Shown: one piece after another, positions 1,792 through 24,955 of the stretch | How the letters are laid out: each line of letters begins with the position of its first letter | How positions within the stretch are numbered: position 1 is the first letter of the stretch | Notes under the pieces: generated by a model | What the model was told of the DNA's origin: nothing | Seen by the model: the letters and a program-made list of their open reading frames with translations, nothing else | Databases searched by the model: none | DNA from: Gallionella sp. | Lineage (GTDB): Bacteria > Pseudomonadota > Gammaproteobacteria > Burkholderiales > Gallionellaceae | Direction: 5' to 3' | DNA: 64,000 nucleotides | NCBI GenBank assembly: GCA_028707275.1 | Contig: JAQTUP010000004.1 | Span: 1 to 64,000 of the forward strand | Position numbers and translations under genes: made by a program

Positions 1792-4131
1792 ATGATTTTC
1801 CATCACCCGATCATGTCCTCACTCGCCAGGCAAAAATCTCTCATCCTGATGCAACTGGGGGTTGCTGCAACCTACCTGCTGTTCGGGACAATAACTCATC
1901 ATTATTTTATCAGCCACGGCATTGTAGGGGTTGTCTGGCCGGGCAGTGGCATAGCGCTGGCCGCCTTACTCATTGGTGGCCGACGCTTCATCTGGGGTGT
2001 TTTTCTCGGCTCACTGCTGCTCAATGCATTATCCAACAGTTCACTCTGGGCTGTTTTCGGAATCACCTTAGCCAATGTACTGGAAGCGCTGACAGGTTTT
2101 TGGCTGATCATACGCCCGGGACACATGACCTCACCCATCGGGACTCTGGCAGGCTACCTGCGACTGATTGCACTGGGAGGCGGAATAACCAGCATGGTCG
2201 GCGCATTGATAGGCACATCATCCCTGCTCCTTGCCGGTTATTTCCCGCCAGGCGAACACTTTGAAAATCTCTCGCACTGGTGGATGGGGGATACGATAGG
2301 TGTGGTGCTGCTCACCCCCTTTATATTGGCATGGCGCCAACCCAGGATCGTGCAACTCACCGCCATGAACCGGCTGGAAGCTGCCATTTTGCTCGGCATC
2401 ACATTTATTGCCGGACAAATTGTTTTCATGGGATGGTTTCACGCCTTCCTGAGCGACACCCCCAAGGGTTACTGGATGTTTCTTTTTACTTCCTGGGCGG
2501 CAATACGCCTGGGGGCTCGCGGCGCCACACTCGTTCTGCTGATGACGTCGATCCAGGCATTATCTGGCGCGTATCAGGAAGTGGGATTTTTCGCCCAGGA
2601 CTTTGCCCGAGCCGATCTGCACAACTACTGGGCTTACATGCTGATTTTATCCATAGTCGGTATGGCTTTATCGACCTATGTCAATGAAATTAAAAATGGC
2701 CTTGAAGCCCTGAAGCTAAAAGACTCAGCACTTAATGCCGCCGCGAACGGCATTGTAATAACGGACCGGACAGGACGCATCGAATGGGCGAATCAGGCTT
2801 TTTGCCAAGCCACGGGATATAGCCTGGACGAAGCTTTAGGGAAAAATTCAGGGCAACTTGTAAAGTCAGGAGCACATGACCTGGCATATTACAAACTGAT
2901 GTGGCAAACCATACTCAGTCACAAGGTTTGGCACGGTGAAATCGTCAATCGTCGCAAGGATGGAGCGCAGTTTGACGAAGAAATGACGATTACGCCCATT
3001 TCGAATGAACGAGGAACCATCACCCACTTCGTTGCGGTAAAACAGGACATTACCGGGCGAAAATATGCCGAAAAGTACGAACGGTTTCAAAGGCACACAT
3101 TGGAAATGCTGGCTGAAAACAATCAGCTTTCAAATATTCTGGATGCCATTGTGCGGGGCATGGAACAACTCAACCCCCGGATGTTGTGCAGTATTTTATT
3201 GCTCGACCAGGAAGGCCGCCACCTTTATCACGGTGCGGCTCCCAGCCTGCCCGACTTTTATAATGCAGCAATCGACGGGATTGAAATTGGCATGGGCGTG
3301 GGTTCCTGCGGCACAGCCGCCTTTACCGGCGAGCGAGTCATCGTTGATGACATAACGACTCACCCCTACTGGGCGCCCTACAAGGCGCTCGCCGCCCGTG
3401 CCGGAATTGGTTCGTGCTGGTCTCAGCCGATACGCTCATCGACAGGTCAGATACTGGGCACCTTTGCCATCTATCATCATGAAGCGCACACACCCGCAGA
3501 ATCTGACATCTCCATTATCGAACAAACTGCCCGTCTGGCAAGCATTGCCATTGAACACCAGCGGATGGCCGAACAGGTGCGTCAGCTTGCGTTCTACGAC
3601 ACTCTCACCAAACTGCCCAACCGGCGTCTGCTCAATGACCGTTTGAGCCAAACCCTCGCCGCCAACAAGCGCAGTGACTGCTACAGCGCACTGATGTTTA
3701 TTGATCTTGACAACTTCAAACCGCTCAATGACACCTATGGTCATATAGTCGGAGATCTGCTGCTGTCTCAGGCGGCCGACAGGTTGAAGAATTGCGTGCG
3801 CGAAACGGACACGGTAGCGCGCTTCGGCGGCGATGAATTTGTGGTAATGCTCAGCGAACTCGACACAGACAAGAGCGAATCAACCCGACAAGCGGGCGTC
3901 GTGGCAGAAAAAATTCGTGCCGCCTTGTGCGCACCCTATCTGCTGCGCATCAGGCACGAAGGCGAGACCGACTCCACGATTGAGCATCGCAGCAGCGCAA
4001 GCATAGGCGTAGTCGTTTTTAAAAATCACGTTGAAGATCAGGACGACATCCTCAAATGGGCGGATGCGGCGATGTATCAGGCCAAAGAAGCCGGACGCAA
4101 TCTGATCCGGTTTTACGCACAGGAAAGATGA
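1792..4131 (+). CDS. MASE1-PAS-GAF-GGDEF diguanylate cyclase
   Basis: A 779-aa membrane sensor predicted to make cyclic di-GMP. Residues about 15-305 contain many hydrophobic helices and match a MASE1-type membrane sensing domain (VVWPGSGIALAALL). A PAS domain follows (about 310-425, ending in QDITGRKYAE), then a GAF domain (about 440-590, with GSCGTAAFTGERVIVDDI) and a C-terminal GGDEF domain (about 600-779). The catalytic motif RFGGDEF is intact, and RETD sits five residues before it as a normal inhibitory I-site, so active and product-inhibited catalysis is expected. There is no EAL domain. The start could be 1792 or the ATG at 1813. It stands alone between tsaD and the bufferin operon, and its signal is unknown. 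Confidence 0.9.
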   Translation: MIFHHPIMSSLARQKSLILMQLGVAATYLLFGTITHHYFISHGIVGVVWPGSGIALAALLIGGRRFIWGVFLGSLLLNALSNSSLWAVFGITLANVLEALTGFWLIIRPGHMTSPIGTLAGYLRLIALGGGITSMVGALIGTSSLLLAGYFPPGEHFENLSHWWMGDTIGVVLLTPFILAWRQPRIVQLTAMNRLEAAILLGITFIAGQIVFMGWFHAFLSDTPKGYWMFLFTSWAAIRLGARGATLVLLMTSIQALSGAYQEVGFFAQDFARADLHNYWAYMLILSIVGMALSTYVNEIKNGLEALKLKDSALNAAANGIVITDRTGRIEWANQAFCQATGYSLDEALGKNSGQLVKSGAHDLAYYKLMWQTILSHKVWHGEIVNRRKDGAQFDEEMTITPISNERGTITHFVAVKQDITGRKYAEKYERFQRHTLEMLAENNQLSNILDAIVRGMEQLNPRMLCSILLLDQEGRHLYHGAAPSLPDFYNAAIDGIEIGMGVGSCGTAAFTGERVIVDDITTHPYWAPYKALAARAGIGSCWSQPIRSSTGQILGTFAIYHHEAHTPAESDISIIEQTARLASIAIEHQRMAEQVRQLAFYDTLTKLPNRRLLNDRLSQTLAANKRSDCYSALMFIDLDNFKPLNDTYGHIVGDLLLSQAADRLKNCVRETDTVARFGGDEFVVMLSELDTDKSESTRQAGVVAEKIRAALCAPYLLRIRHEGETDSTIEHRSSASIGVVVFKNHVEDQDDILKWADAAMYQAKEAGRNLIRFYAQER

Positions 4132-4247: not shown

Positions 4248-4275
4248 GTAACCTTTTTTCGCGCCCCGACGAATC
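4248..4275 (+). promoter_or_regulatory. ECF-sigma-like promoter upstream of the bufferin operon
   Basis: GTAACC (4248-4253) is followed after 16 bases by CGAATC (4270-4275). From memory, GTAACC and CGAA are the -35 and -10 elements of the SigF (ECF) regulon that controls bufferin genes in Caulobacter. Transcription would begin about 4283, leaving a leader of about 110 bases before bufA. No sigma or anti-sigma gene lies in this window, so any regulator would be encoded elsewhere. This is an inference from motif and position. Confidence 0.5.
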
Positions 4276-4391
4276 TGTGGGTGCGTGGAAGATGCGACAA
4301 AAGTTCATCGAAAACGCGAAGACATCACGCCGCCGGACTCTCCGGCCTGCGTTTAATTACAACCTTTCTCAACCAAAATGGAGTTTCAAAC

Positions 4392-4673
4392 ATGAACAAG
4401 CAATTGACAGCAGCAATCGGCGGTTTACTGGCACTGGGTCTTGCGGGCGCGGCAAGTGCGGCTGACCAGAAAATGGAAAAATGCTACGGTATTGCCAAGG
4501 CGGGTATGAACGACTGCGGCAGCAAAAAAGCGGGACACTCCTGTGCAGGACAGGCCAGCAAGAACAGCGACGCAAACGATTTCGTCGCGCTGCCCAAGGG
4601 AACATGCAACAAGATTGCCAACGGCAGCCTGGGCGAGGCTGGCGACGCGATGATGATGAAAAAGACCATGTAA
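4392..4673 (+). CDS. bufA: Bufferin precursor (DUF2282, BufA1 type)
   Basis: A 93-aa exported small protein. Residues 1-23 form a clear signal peptide ending in ASAADQ. The mature part has exactly four cysteines in the contexts EKCYG, NDCGS, HSCAG and GTCNK, the DUF2282 pattern. In the family these cysteines are post-translationally modified by the partner MNIO enzyme, and the product binds copper in the periplasm and protects against metal stress. The start is the ATG at 4392, which alone gives a signal peptide; an upstream in-frame ATG at 4236 would add an unrelated leader. It is first in an operon with bufB, bufC and a DoxX protein. The family assignment is clear; the copper role is taken from characterised homologues. 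Confidence 0.9.
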   Translation: MNKQLTAAIGGLLALGLAGAASAADQKMEKCYGIAKAGMNDCGSKKAGHSCAGQASKNSDANDFVALPKGTCNKIANGSLGEAGDAMMMKKTM

Positions 4674-4723
4674 CGGGCATGATATTTAAACCATTACAGA
4701 CGGAGAGACCTGCCATGCCCGTT

Positions 4724-4832
4724 CCCTCACCCCAACCCTCTCCCGCAAGCCTGCCTGTGCGTTGCACGCAGACAGGCACCCAGTCAGGCGGGCGAGGGAG
4801 CGAACGAACGCTTGCGCGAGTTTTACGTTAAT
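4724..4832 (+). repeat. Palindromic dispersed repeat, copy B (bufA-bufB spacer), with nested palindrome
   Basis: The C-rich lead and CTCTCCCGCAAG half-arm begin the element. The palindrome is then interrupted by a second palindromic segment (TGCCTGTGCG...CAGACAGGCA, about 4751-4778) before the GGCGGGCGAGGGAGCGAACG arm resumes. The tail TTGCGCGAGTTTTACGTTA ends at the ATG of bufB. This appears to be one repeat inserted in another. Confidence 0.7.
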
Positions 4833-5658
4833 GAAGCGGCCCGCAACGCTTCCCTGTACCGCAGGTATTGGCTTGCGGGCGCCTCATTACCGCGAGGTAC
4901 TGAACACCTTACCGCCTCTTGGCTGGGTAGAGGTGCATAACGAGAATTTTTTTGGCGGGGGGGCGGCATTGAGCACCCTGCTCAAGGTACGCGAGCATTA
5001 CCCTGTCAGCCTGCATGGCGTCGGCATGGGACTGGCTTCGACGACACCGCTGGACCTGCACCATTTGACTGAACTGCATCGTTTGTGCGATGCGGTCAAA
5101 CCACAGGCCGTCTCCGAACATCTGTGCTGGAATGCTGCCGATGGCTTTGTGATCAACGACTTATTGCCCTTCCCCTACACCCGGGAAGCGCTGGCGCATG
5201 TGGCGAGCCGCATCGACCAGGTGCAGGAAAAACTGGGGCGACAGTTACTGGTCGAAAACCTCTCCAGCTACCTGTCCTTCTCGCACAGCGAAATGACCGA
5301 AGGCGAATTTTTGGCCGAACTCACCCGCCGTACCGGGTGCGGCATCCTGTTCGATGTTGAAAACCTGTATGTGAATACGCGCAATCTGGGCGTGGACGCA
5401 GAAGCTTTTATCAGAGCGATCCCGCCTGATGCCGTCAGGGAATACCACCTGGCCGGATACTCGGTGATGGATGGCTGCCTGGTCGATACGCACAACCATC
5501 CTGTATACCCGGAAGTATGGGCGCTCTATGAGTATGTGCTGCAACAGATCGGGCCGCGCCCCACCCTGATCGAGTGGGACAGCGATATTCCTGCGCTGGC
5601 CGTGCTGATGAATGAAGCTGCCTGTGCACAGCAAAGGATGGATGCCTGCCATGAGTGA
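4831..5658 (+). CDS. bufB: MNIO-family enzyme BufB (DUF692)
   Basis: A 275-aa TIM-barrel multinuclear non-heme iron oxidase. It is expected to bind BufA through BufC and modify its cysteines. DUF692 signature blocks are present in order: GIGLRAPHYREV, EVHNENFF, SLHGVGMGL, SEHLCW, VENLSSYL, FDVENLYVN, EYHLAGY, DTHNHPV and IEWDSDIP. The His, Glu and Asp residues expected to bind iron lie within them. The start is the ATG at 4831, directly after repeat copy B; an upstream in-frame start at 4762 would only translate the repeat. The stop overlaps the bufC start by 8 bases, which implies translational coupling. Substrate and chemistry are inferred from family and operon. Confidence 0.92.
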   Translation: MKRPATLPCTAGIGLRAPHYREVLNTLPPLGWVEVHNENFFGGGAALSTLLKVREHYPVSLHGVGMGLASTTPLDLHHLTELHRLCDAVKPQAVSEHLCWNAADGFVINDLLPFPYTREALAHVASRIDQVQEKLGRQLLVENLSSYLSFSHSEMTEGEFLAELTRRTGCGILFDVENLYVNTRNLGVDAEAFIRAIPPDAVREYHLAGYSVMDGCLVDTHNHPVYPEVWALYEYVLQQIGPRPTLIEWDSDIPALAVLMNEAACAQQRMDACHE

Positions 5659-6427
5659 GTACACTGACGAACTTGCGCATTTTGCACGCGCCATCGTCTG
5701 CTGCGAGTCTCCCTCGCAAAAGGTGTGCAGGACATACCCCGATTACACCGCCGCGACCGCCATGGAAGTCTATCGCAACAACTATCGAGGCAATCTGCAC
5801 GATGCGCTGGCCGTGGCTTATCCTGTCATCCTGCAACTGGTAGGCGATGATTTTTTTCGGTTCATGGCAAGAAAATATATCGGTGAACATCCGTCGCAAA
5901 GCGCCAACCTCCATCATTATGGCGCCGAATTAGCCGCTTTTCTGTCGGGCTTCGCGCCCGCGCAGGAACTGCCTTATCTGCCGGATGTGGCAAGGCTGGA
6001 GTGGCACTGCCACCTGGCTTATTTCGCACCCGATGCCCCCTCCTTTTCGCTGGCTTATCTGGCAGAAATACCCGCCGAACACTATGCGGAATTGAGTATA
6101 GGAACCGCTTGCCGGATGGTGCGCTCCGACTTTCCCGTCATGCAAATATGGCAGGCGCACCAGCCAGGCGCCGACAGCGATTTTCGCATCGATCTCGATA
6201 ACGGCGGCGGTATTGCGCTGGTGAGTCGCAAGGAATATGTCATACGGGTCAGTGAACTCCCGGAGGCTGCCGCCTGCTGGCTGCAACACATACAAGACGG
6301 CGACACGCTGGGCCTGGCGACACATGCCACACTGGAACGCCATCCCCGCTTCGACTTGCAGGCCACCTTGATCAACCTGCTCGCGCAAGGCGCACTCACA
6401 AGCTTTACTTCGGCTGCGACATCGTGA
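5651..6427 (+). CDS. bufC: BufC, DUF2063 partner protein of the MNIO
   Basis: A 258-aa protein with an N-terminal DUF2063-type domain (HFARAIVC..., YPDYTAATAMEVYRNNYRGN, AYPVILQLVGDDFF) and a C-terminal domain of about 150 residues. In characterised MNIO pathways the equivalent protein helps recruit the precursor to the enzyme. The N-terminal family is annotated as putative DNA-binding, but the operon position argues for a RiPP-recognition role. The start at 5651 overlaps bufB by 8 bases; the end overlaps the next start by 4 (GTGA). No signal peptide, as expected for a cytoplasmic maturation factor. Confidence 0.88.
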   Translation: MSEYTDELAHFARAIVCCESPSQKVCRTYPDYTAATAMEVYRNNYRGNLHDALAVAYPVILQLVGDDFFRFMARKYIGEHPSQSANLHHYGAELAAFLSGFAPAQELPYLPDVARLEWHCHLAYFAPDAPSFSLAYLAEIPAEHYAELSIGTACRMVRSDFPVMQIWQAHQPGADSDFRIDLDNGGGIALVSRKEYVIRVSELPEAAACWLQHIQDGDTLGLATHATLERHPRFDLQATLINLLAQGALTSFTSAATS

Positions 6428-6888
6428 ATATCATTCTTCGCCTCACACGGCTTTACTACCGTGCATCCCGTCTGCCGGAACATCTGGCTCCCCTGATCGA
6501 CCTGGGGCTGAAATTATTTCTGGCTCAGGTATTTTTTAAATCGGGGCTGACCAAGATACAGACCTGGGACAGCACCCTTTATTTGTTCGCTGATGTTTAC
6601 CAGGTGCCGCTGCTCAATCCCGAATTTGCGGCCTGGCTGGCCACAGGCGCGGAACTGGGATTGCCGGTTTTTCTGGTCGCAGGACTCTTCGGGCGCTTTG
6701 CCGCTGCCGGACTGTTCATCCTCAATCTGGTCGCCGTCATTTCCTATTATTCAGAACTGAGCGAAGCCGGACTCAATCAGCATCTGTACTGGGGAATCTT
6801 GCTGACCGTGCTGCTCTCGATCAGCCGCAGCGCCTGGTCAGTGGATCACTGGCTGGAAAACAGGTTGGAAAAATCAGCCAGATCTTAA
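6424..6888 (+). CDS. DoxX-family membrane protein (bufferin operon)
   Basis: A 154-aa integral membrane protein with about four hydrophobic helices and DoxX features (LFLAQVFFKSGLTKIQTWD near residues 31-49). It starts at GTG 6424, overlapping the bufC stop by 4 bases. DoxX proteins are frequent last members of DUF2282/DUF692/DUF2063 operons. Their role there is not settled; a link to quinone or redox supply, or to export, is speculation. Confidence 0.85.
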   Translation: MNIILRLTRLYYRASRLPEHLAPLIDLGLKLFLAQVFFKSGLTKIQTWDSTLYLFADVYQVPLLNPEFAAWLATGAELGLPVFLVAGLFGRFAAAGLFILNLVAVISYYSELSEAGLNQHLYWGILLTVLLSISRSAWSVDHWLENRLEKSARS

Positions 6889-6918
6889 CTTCGATGCACG
6901 CACACCAAGGAGACTCTC

Positions 6919-7584
6919 TTGAATCTGTCACACCCTAAACGCATCAGCCGCCGGAACATCATCGTGTATATCCTGGTCGCATTATTCATCGGCATCGCAT
7001 TCATGATGGTGACGGAGCAGCTCAACCGTCAGAATGCCGCGATTGAAAAAGAAGAGGCCAGAATGCATGAGGCTGCCATTAAAAATACTGCTCGCACAAC
7101 GCTGGCAAAAGAGATTCATACGCACGCCGAAGCCAGTGCCGGTCAGCTGGCTCTGCTCTTCGTCCTGAACGACAAGGACAAAAGGATCACGGCCTATGGC
7201 GAGATGGACAGACACAACGCGTCCATGGATCTGGCAATCGAGCGCATCGGGCCGTTGCTCGAAGGTGCGGATGATAAAAAGACCCGTTTGATCAGTTTGC
7301 GCGATGCCTTTCGTGACGGCCTGCAAGAGTCCGTGGACGCGCTGGAATTGAATGACAAGGAAAAAGGGAAGCTGCTTTTATCCACGGTGACACTGAAAAA
7401 TCTTCAGGCGCTGCGCAGCCTGGTGGAGCAGATCGCAACTGAACAGCCAGCACGCCCGATGGCGCCGGAAAAATCCACTTTCATGGATTCCCGGACTGCC
7501 GTCATCGGACTGGGCCTGGGTTCTGCCGTGATCGCATTGCTGCTGGGCATGATGCTCACCAGAAAGGTGGCATCAATTACATAG
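6919..7584 (+). CDS. Chemoreceptor-like four-helix sensor without signalling domain
   Basis: A 221-aa protein with a membrane helix near residues 14-33, about 145 residues of periplasmic helical sequence resembling the four-helix-bundle ligand domain of methyl-accepting proteins, and a second membrane helix near 195-214. It ends only a few residues after that helix, with no HAMP or signalling domain. The start is TTG 6919, supported by an AAGGAGA ribosome site six bases upstream. It lies 30 bases after the DoxX gene and may be the last gene of the bufferin operon. It could be a truncated receptor, or a periplasmic sensor acting through a partner. Confidence 0.7.
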   Translation: MNLSHPKRISRRNIIVYILVALFIGIAFMMVTEQLNRQNAAIEKEEARMHEAAIKNTARTTLAKEIHTHAEASAGQLALLFVLNDKDKRITAYGEMDRHNASMDLAIERIGPLLEGADDKKTRLISLRDAFRDGLQESVDALELNDKEKGKLLLSTVTLKNLQALRSLVEQIATEQPARPMAPEKSTFMDSRTAVIGLGLGSAVIALLLGMMLTRKVASIT

Positions 7585-7602: not shown

Positions 7603-9249
7603 TCAGTTCAGCTGCTGTCCGTGTTCCCGCGTCGCGAAAAATTGCACCTTGGGCCAGCGCTCCTGAACCAGACGAAGATTCACGCCTGAATCGGCAAGAT
7701 AGGCATAATTTCCGTCCACATCTTTTGCCAGACGGCTCTGGTTGGCCTTGACGAACTCATTCAAATGAGCCGTATCAGGACAAGTCACCCAGCGCGCGGT
7801 ATGGATACCCGCACGTTCAAACACGGCATCCACCCCGTACTCGGCCTTGAGGCGGTGCTCGACCACTTCAAACTGCAACTGACCCACGGCGCCGATCAGC
7901 GGGTTGCTCGTGTCAACCAGAGGTTCGAATACCTGCACCGCGCCCTCTTCACCTAACTGGCGCAAGCCCTTTTGCAATTGTTTGGCCTTCATCGGGTCGC
8001 GCAGCCGCGCGCGGCTGAACAACTCAGGCGCAAAGTACGGGATGCCCTTGAAGGTCAGTGCCTCACCTTCTGTCAGGACATCGCCGATCTGCAACTGGCC
8101 GTGGTTGTGGACGCCGATAATGTCGCCCGCATAAGCCTCATCCATACGCGTGCGCTCATTCGCCATGAAGGTCACCGCATTGGCAAGCTTCATTTCCTTG
8201 CCGGTACGGCGATGTTTGACCTTCATGCCCGAACTGTAACGCCCCGAACACACGCGCATAAAAGCGATACGGTCGCGGTGATTCGGATCCATATTGGCCT
8301 GAATCTTGAAGACAAATCCGGTGAACGCGGGCTCGGTGGGCAACACCTGCCGCACATCGGTGGCACGCGGCAGAGGCGCTGGCGCCCAATCGACCAGTGC
8401 GCGCAATATTTCGCGCACGCCGAAGTTATTCACGCCTGAGCCGAAAAACACCGGTGATTGCTGGCCTTTGAGAAACTCGTCCAGATCGAATGAGGCGCCC
8501 GCCCCCATCACCAGCTCTGTTTCCTCACGCATGGTCTGCATCTCGGCAGGACACTGCTTCGCCAGCTGATCGATCTGGGCGCCTTGCAATGTCTCGACTT
8601 CCTGACCCGCCTTGGCTTCGCCTGGCAAAAAGCGCAGCACTTCATCGTTGAGCAGGTGATAGACGCCCTGAAAGCGCTTACCCATGCCGATAGGCCAGGT
8701 CACCGGGGCACATTTGATCTTCAGGACAGATTCAATCTCGTCCAGCACTTCCAGCGGTTCGCGCACTTCGCGATCCATCTTGTTGATGAAGGTGATGATC
8801 GGCGTGTTGCGCAAGCGGCACACTTCCAGCAGCTTGATGGTCTGCTCTTCCACGCCCTTGGCCGCATCGACCACCATCACCGCCGCATCCACGGCAGTCA
8901 GTACGCGATAGGTATCTTCCGAGAAATCCTGGTGACCCGGCGTATCGAGCAGGTTGATGACGCAATCGTCGTAGGTGAACTGCATCACCGAACTGGCGAC
9001 AGAAATACCGCGCTGTTTCTCGATTTCCAGCCAGTCTGAAGTCGCGTGACGCCCACTCTTGCGCGCTTTTACCGTCCCTGCCATCTGAATCGCGCCACCG
9101 AACAGCAACAGTTTTTCGGTGAGCGTAGTCTTACCCGCATCAGGGTGAGAGATGATCGCAAAAGTGCGGCGGCGTTTAACTTCGCGCACGATGCCATCCT
9201 GGCTGACAGGCTCATCACCGGTACGGATTTCTTCGGATACTTGAATCAT
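7603..9249 (-). CDS. prfC: Peptide chain release factor 3 (RF3)
   Basis: A translational GTPase that removes RF1/RF2 from the ribosome after peptide release. The G1 loop [15 protein letters not shown], the G3 motif [14 protein letters not shown] and NKMDRE (G4) are intact. The length is 548 aa, near the usual ~530. The ATG at 9249 is chosen (MIQVSEE) over an upstream in-frame start at 9282, which would add a hydrophobic leader absent from the family. It ends a few bases from the convergent end of the four-helix protein and lies downstream of the tRNA-Phe terminator. Confidence 0.96.
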
Positions 9250-24896: not shown

Positions 24897-24955
24897 ATCC
24901 CCTCGCCCGAAAACGTGCGGGGGAACAAATGAATCACTACGCAGGTTTGAAATTG
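24897..24955 (+). repeat. Palindromic dispersed repeat, copy C (before trhP)
   Basis: A decayed copy: CCCCTCGCCCGAAAACGTGC, then GGGGGAACAAATGAATCACT and ACGCAGGTTTGAAATT. The tail aligns well with the tsaD copy (GGGGACAAACGAATCGCTGC, then GCGAATTTCAAATT). It runs up to the trhP start and probably supplies part of its leader. Confidence 0.65.

Follow-up and report, generated by a model that had tools for sequence, protein, structure and literature searches.

A truncated chemoreceptor gene behind a Buf1 bufferin operon with a sigma-F-type promoter in Gallionella sp.

In the 64,000-nucleotide stretch of a Gallionella sp. genome analyzed here (GenBank assembly GCA_028707275.1, contig JAQTUP010000004.1, positions 1 to 64,000 of the forward strand; hereafter the window), positions 4392-6888 hold bufA, bufB, bufC and doxX in this order, a gene content that strongly supports a canonical bufferin operon of the Buf1 (gig) type. 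A sigma-F-type promoter precedes it, and 30 bp past doxX follows a fifth gene (6919-7584, plus strand) which descends from a chemoreceptor and is truncated before the HAMP domain. Taken together, the data are probably best explained by a Buf1 operon driven by a sigma-F/NrsF system, with a fifth gene that derives from a chemoreceptor of the operon itself. The bufferin operon is a further member of an already known operon type; the bufferin-linked chemoreceptor is new in the sense that we found no description of such a variant in the literature.

Results

The fifth gene starts with TTG at position 6919, behind the ribosome-binding site AAGGAGA (6907-6913, plus strand), and comprises 221 codons. 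Its product aligns from the first residue to the end of the second transmembrane helix with full-length methyl-accepting chemotaxis proteins (MCPs) of three relatives (L085, L086 and L087), and it stops, with ...LTRKVASIT, where the HAMP domain of these full receptors starts. A Pfam search detected neither a HAMP nor an MCP signalling domain in 6919-7584, and since prfC on the opposite strand ends at 7603, no remnant of either is hidden directly 3' of the sensor gene. An AlphaFold2 model, built from four sequences and of moderate confidence (mean pLDDT 76), is a helical bundle, and among its first Foldseek matches, which are weak (best E 0.0048), are the ligand-binding domains of MCP2201 and PcaY_PP. 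With these 4HB_MCP chemoreceptors (PF12729) the protein shares two transmembrane helices, a periplasmic four-helix bundle, the matching fold and a clade with full MCPs; it differs from them in having no HAMP or MCP signalling domain, in scoring under the Pfam cut-off for 4HB_MCP and in standing in a bufferin operon. No terminator-like site was found on the plus strand between doxX and the sensor gene, and the genome retains MCPs and CheW-domain proteins.

Judged by sequence, the fifth gene is therefore the two-transmembrane, four-helix-bundle input half of an MCP. An earlier note on this DNA had described a receptor-like four-helix protein 30 bases after doxX, which the alignment, the predicted fold and the matches to MCP ligand-binding domains bear out. 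Its further proposal, that a cotranscribed periplasmic sensor had been added and would be new, is half right, because the gene was not newly added to the operon: in three relatives a full-length receptor occupies the corresponding place, and the window gene represents the input half of this receptor, the output half having been lost.

These relatives emerged from searches of 101 related genomes and then of one genome each of 84,980 species. In the former, the 221-residue sensor had only two relatives at E<0.001, both of them the first ~215 residues of full chemoreceptors encoded directly behind bufC-doxX; the species scan returned L085 (Kiruna2_bin-1694) and L087 (SZUA-261) again and added L086 (Gallionellaceae A2_bin-1030), likewise behind doxX. 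All three genomes are fragmented metagenome bins. The doxX and full MCP genes of L085 overlap by 4 bp. Pfam assigns 4HB_MCP_1, HAMP and MCPsignal domains to the receptors of L085 and L086, while that of L087 runs past the contig end and shows an MCP signalling match. Named genomes were searched for the receptor with two peptide patterns, which distant members may escape; no further clade member was found with them in the 84,980 species genomes, nor in 76 genomes of the genus. The neighborhood of the closest non-bufferin receptor contains a histidine kinase, an MFS transporter and a LysR regulator, and no metal-resistance genes were found there. We also considered four-helix-bundle MCPs of any kind as the relevant family. 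A generic search across the order matched 143 of 399 genomes, and this definition was rejected because the best matches inspected were ordinary MCPs or long signalling proteins that do not lie beside bufferin genes.

At L086:4910-7632, bufA, doxX and the full receptor gene are retained and bufB and bufC are gone except for a bufB fragment; an unmodified bufferin may persist there, or the operon may be decaying.

In a tree of the four bufferin-linked sensor domains and 38 other four-helix-bundle domains, the former make up one clade (support 99/94). Residues 59-114 of the window sensor (7093-7260, plus strand) form a conserved core, which keeps 31 of the 45 sites that are invariant in the full receptors, compared with 32 of 86 elsewhere in the sensor (Fisher p=0.0008). 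Within this core lie H69, E71, S73, G75 and H99, which are common to the clade and absent from the closest non-bufferin homologues.

The operon genes, all on the plus strand, were called by reading the sequence and by six-frame translation, and assigned to families with Pfam and NCBIfam profiles. As marks of a Buf1 cluster we took a DUF2282 precursor with a Sec signal peptide and four cysteines, the MNIO protein BufB, a DUF2063 partner and DoxX, and further a product whose central cysteines become thiooxazoles and which binds copper. The precursor gene bufA (gigP, 4392-4673) encodes 93 residues with a signal peptide, which we assigned by eye rather than by a prediction program, and four cysteines that align with those of relatives; it scores 82.8 bits against PF10048 (DUF2282; cut-off 22.4) and is the only DUF2282 gene of the genome. 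The maturase gene bufB (gigA, 4831-5658) reaches 362.3 against the equivalog cut-off of 310 for NF050167 (MNIO_BufB) and E=2.5e-102 for PF05114, and its product can be aligned to the solved DUF692 structure 3BWW and to MbnB. The DUF2063 partner BufC (gigB, 5651-6427; PF09836, 87.6 bits) and the DoxX-family membrane protein (gigT, 6424-6888, GTG start; PF07681, 59.8 bits) likewise lie above their cut-offs. With all four families above curated cut-offs, the bufferin identity proposed in the earlier note is well supported. An Rfam scan of the operon gave matches at chance level only.

The same note had all four genes joined by start/stop overlaps. This is true of bufB/bufC (8 bp) and bufC/doxX (4 bp), but bufA and bufB lie 157 bp apart, because a REP-like (repetitive extragenic palindromic) element of ~105 bp (approximately 4724-4830, plus strand) has been inserted between them. 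The element, which belongs to family D2 with its five window copies, is absent at this place from relatives, and in L035, L043, L044, L042 and L038 bufA and bufB are joined by a TAATG overlap. With this overlap lost, the translational coupling between precursor and maturase may be changed in the window strain. Another copy of the family, at 1265-1345, lies in frame within tsaD and adds a peptide to its product; the remaining copies are at 24902, 28775 and 39294.

The promoter (4248-4273, plus strand) consists of a -35 element GTAACC (4248-4253), a spacer of 16 nucleotides and a -10 element CGAA (4270-4273), and matches exactly the published Caulobacter sigma-F sequence GTAACC-N16-CGAA (PMC3511200). 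The exact site, each time as GTAACCTTT, stands upstream of bufA in nine genomes of the genus, that is, in the window and in eight others, and one more genome of the order has a variant of it before bufA; ~0.00025 exact sites are expected per 400-bp upstream region. Genome-wide, a loose form of the motif had 16 matches, only slightly above the 12 of a reversed control, so that the evidence for the promoter lies in its position and conservation and not in its rarity; as a specific genome-wide marker the motif by itself was rejected. The sole other GTAACCTTT-N16-CGAA site of the genome (C12:66085) falls within a gene region on the opposite strand. Just 3' of the -10 element is a block, GTGCGTGGA (4281-4289, plus strand), which is kept with at most two changes in eight of ten aligned bufA leaders that are otherwise variable; it is possibly an operator or an mRNA 5' element. 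The promoter read by the earlier note is thus present exactly as described, and the SigF/anti-sigma pair which it had suggested seeking was found as well.

This pair, a gene for a sigma factor of the extracytoplasmic function (ECF) type directly before nrsF, lies at ~657.9-659.1 kb of another contig (G000:C14; L055:7940-9129), unlinked to the bufferin genes. Its NrsF scores 132 bits against PF06532 and stays under the stricter cut-off of NF042994. In the genome G001, a bufferin operon is followed immediately by genes for sigma and NrsF. Across the genus, 10 of the 15 genomes that carry bufA encode NrsF, versus 8 of the 46 that lack bufA (Fisher p=0.0007, relatedness not corrected for).

Discussion

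The gene set found here, which also goes by the name gigPABT, is the Buf1 core as defined in a survey of MNIO clusters. As far as the main text of that survey goes (PMC12452194), the window operon and the Buf1 clusters, such as that of Caulobacter vibrioides, agree in the DUF2282 precursor with signal peptide and four cysteines, the MNIO protein BufB, the DUF2063 protein BufC and DoxX. An association with sigma/NrsF is also known there, the pair being unlinked in the window genome; what sets the window apart is the chemoreceptor-derived fifth gene and the REP-like element between bufA and bufB, and the main text makes no mention of a chemoreceptor. Bufferin clusters also include the gig operons of Cupriavidus metallidurans (PMC10304878) and of Legionella (PMC5413113), with demonstrated induction by copper and gold; in view of this work, the earlier note goes too far in stating that only few bufferins have been studied outside Caulobacter. 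In C. metallidurans (PMC10304878) the four genes stand in identical order and the genome encodes the ECF sigma factor RpoQ and an anti-sigma factor; unlike in the window, rpoQ-rsqA lies divergently beside gig, the transcript ends after gigT and there is no receptor gene. The conserved sigma-F site provides promoter evidence of a kind that is still missing for the Cupriavidus gig operon.

With this in mind, we propose that periplasmic metal stress would lead to transcription of the operon from its promoter under control of sigma-F and NrsF. BufB together with BufC would modify the two central cysteines of BufA, the exported BufA would bind excess copper, and DoxX would act as the usual membrane accessory of such operons. 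In the relatives, the full receptors would couple metal stress, or bufferin loaded with metal, to movement via CheW and CheA. In the lineage of the window, loss of the HAMP and signalling domains would have left a membrane-anchored periplasmic four-helix bundle, presumably still cotranscribed with the operon. As it has no part that contacts CheA and by itself could not signal to it, this protein would be either a repurposed binding or partner protein of the envelope or a recent remnant. The arrangement hints that copper buffering and swimming were once wired together. A more far-reaching version holds that the receptor clade evolved in bufferin operons, senses metal or loaded bufferin and steers the cell, and that the window copy, shortened to a periplasmic sensor or a metal-binding bundle standing on its own, has kept a function in the operon; in this full form we regard it as unlikely.

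Several observations weigh against the proposed account. Within 300 bp upstream of the genome's own sigma gene, no sigma-F site with at most two mismatches was found, so that the autoregulated sigF promoter characteristic of a sigma-F/NrsF regulon was not seen. The operon of the full-receptor relative L085 (genome G038) has no upstream sigma-F site, and receptor and promoter are therefore no fixed pair. The gig transcript of C. metallidurans stops after gigT according to reverse transcription PCR (PMC10304878). Finally, the branch of the window sensor measures 1.3 versus 0.15-0.29 for the full receptors, ~5-8 times longer, and its identity to them is 36-39%, as compared with 68-76% among themselves; decay is possible on this ground. 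The acceleration is absent from BufB and DoxX, and DoxX of the window is 65-77% identical to DoxX of the full-receptor relatives.

A long branch and missing HAMP and signalling domains are indeed what would be expected if the fifth gene were a decaying pseudogene, the rest of which drifts without function, and we take this as a serious possibility, although one short of even chances. The syntenic buf/prfC junctions of G035, G011 and G050 hold no sensor gene, nor was a remnant of one found there, and L086 documents decay, by loss of bufB and bufC, in the same operon family. Yet the gene keeps 221 open codons with every indel in frame and a good ribosome-binding site, its GC content by codon position (0.57/0.38/0.66) is like that of doxX (0.59/0.39/0.63), and its conservation is concentrated in the core. 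Moreover, when neutral change was simulated to the observed divergence, no more than 4 of 400 runs per setting kept the frame free of stops; the divergence therefore arose largely under selection on the frame, be it before or after the truncation. To our knowledge, no precedent can be cited for a stand-alone sensor of this kind. We nevertheless consider it, tentatively, only slightly less likely than decay that the truncated protein works as an independent envelope bundle. It might bind metal or bufferin through the clade-specific His and Glu residues, or else have DoxX or a full receptor as its partner. The retained open frame would fit this, as would the persistence of H69, E71, S73, G75 and H99 at ~37% identity; H69 and H99 are equidistant from the turn predicted between helices 1 and 2 (residues 83-85) and so could face each other side by side. 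However, such a protein has no output domain, the histidines could serve another ligand, and the model of moderate confidence derives from only four sequences.

That the sensor gene is an independent neighbor between doxX and prfC, unlinked to the bufferin operon, appears very improbable. Most bufferin operons of the genus do come without it, and in the window it ends just 18 bp from the end of prfC and could have its own expression; but all four clade members stand directly behind doxX, with differing flanks, and neither the two-pattern search of 84,980 species genomes nor that of 76 genomes of the genus yielded a clade member elsewhere.

Bufferins are very widespread among bacteria as a response to copper stress, and we found nothing that links them to behavior; in the library searched, no paper combined DUF692 with methyl-accepting chemotaxis proteins. 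Taxis in response to copper is known from Caulobacter. The chemoreceptor described for such a copper response is cytoplasmic (PMC10579534), whereas the bufferin-linked receptors are predicted to sense with a periplasmic four-helix bundle. With a receptor fixed behind doxX in several relatives, a direct connection of metal sequestration with taxis can be put to the test, and the truncated window gene provides a natural test of a sensing domain without its output.

Two further observations concern cyclic di-GMP proteins near bufferin genes. A diguanylate cyclase with MASE1-PAS-GAF-GGDEF architecture (window 1792-4131, same strand) ends 117 bp 5' of the bufferin promoter. In four other genomes, a gene for a conserved GGDEF-EAL protein comes after a second bufferin precursor gene: L038:3469-6248 (G006), L041:4212-6866 (G029), L057:4638-7299 (G060) and L058:6056-8275 (G038). 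These proteins are 72-77% identical across three of the genomes and, in two pieces, 58-72% identical to that of the fourth, and the recurring gene pair ends a bufABC-doxX operon in two cases and stands separately in the other two.

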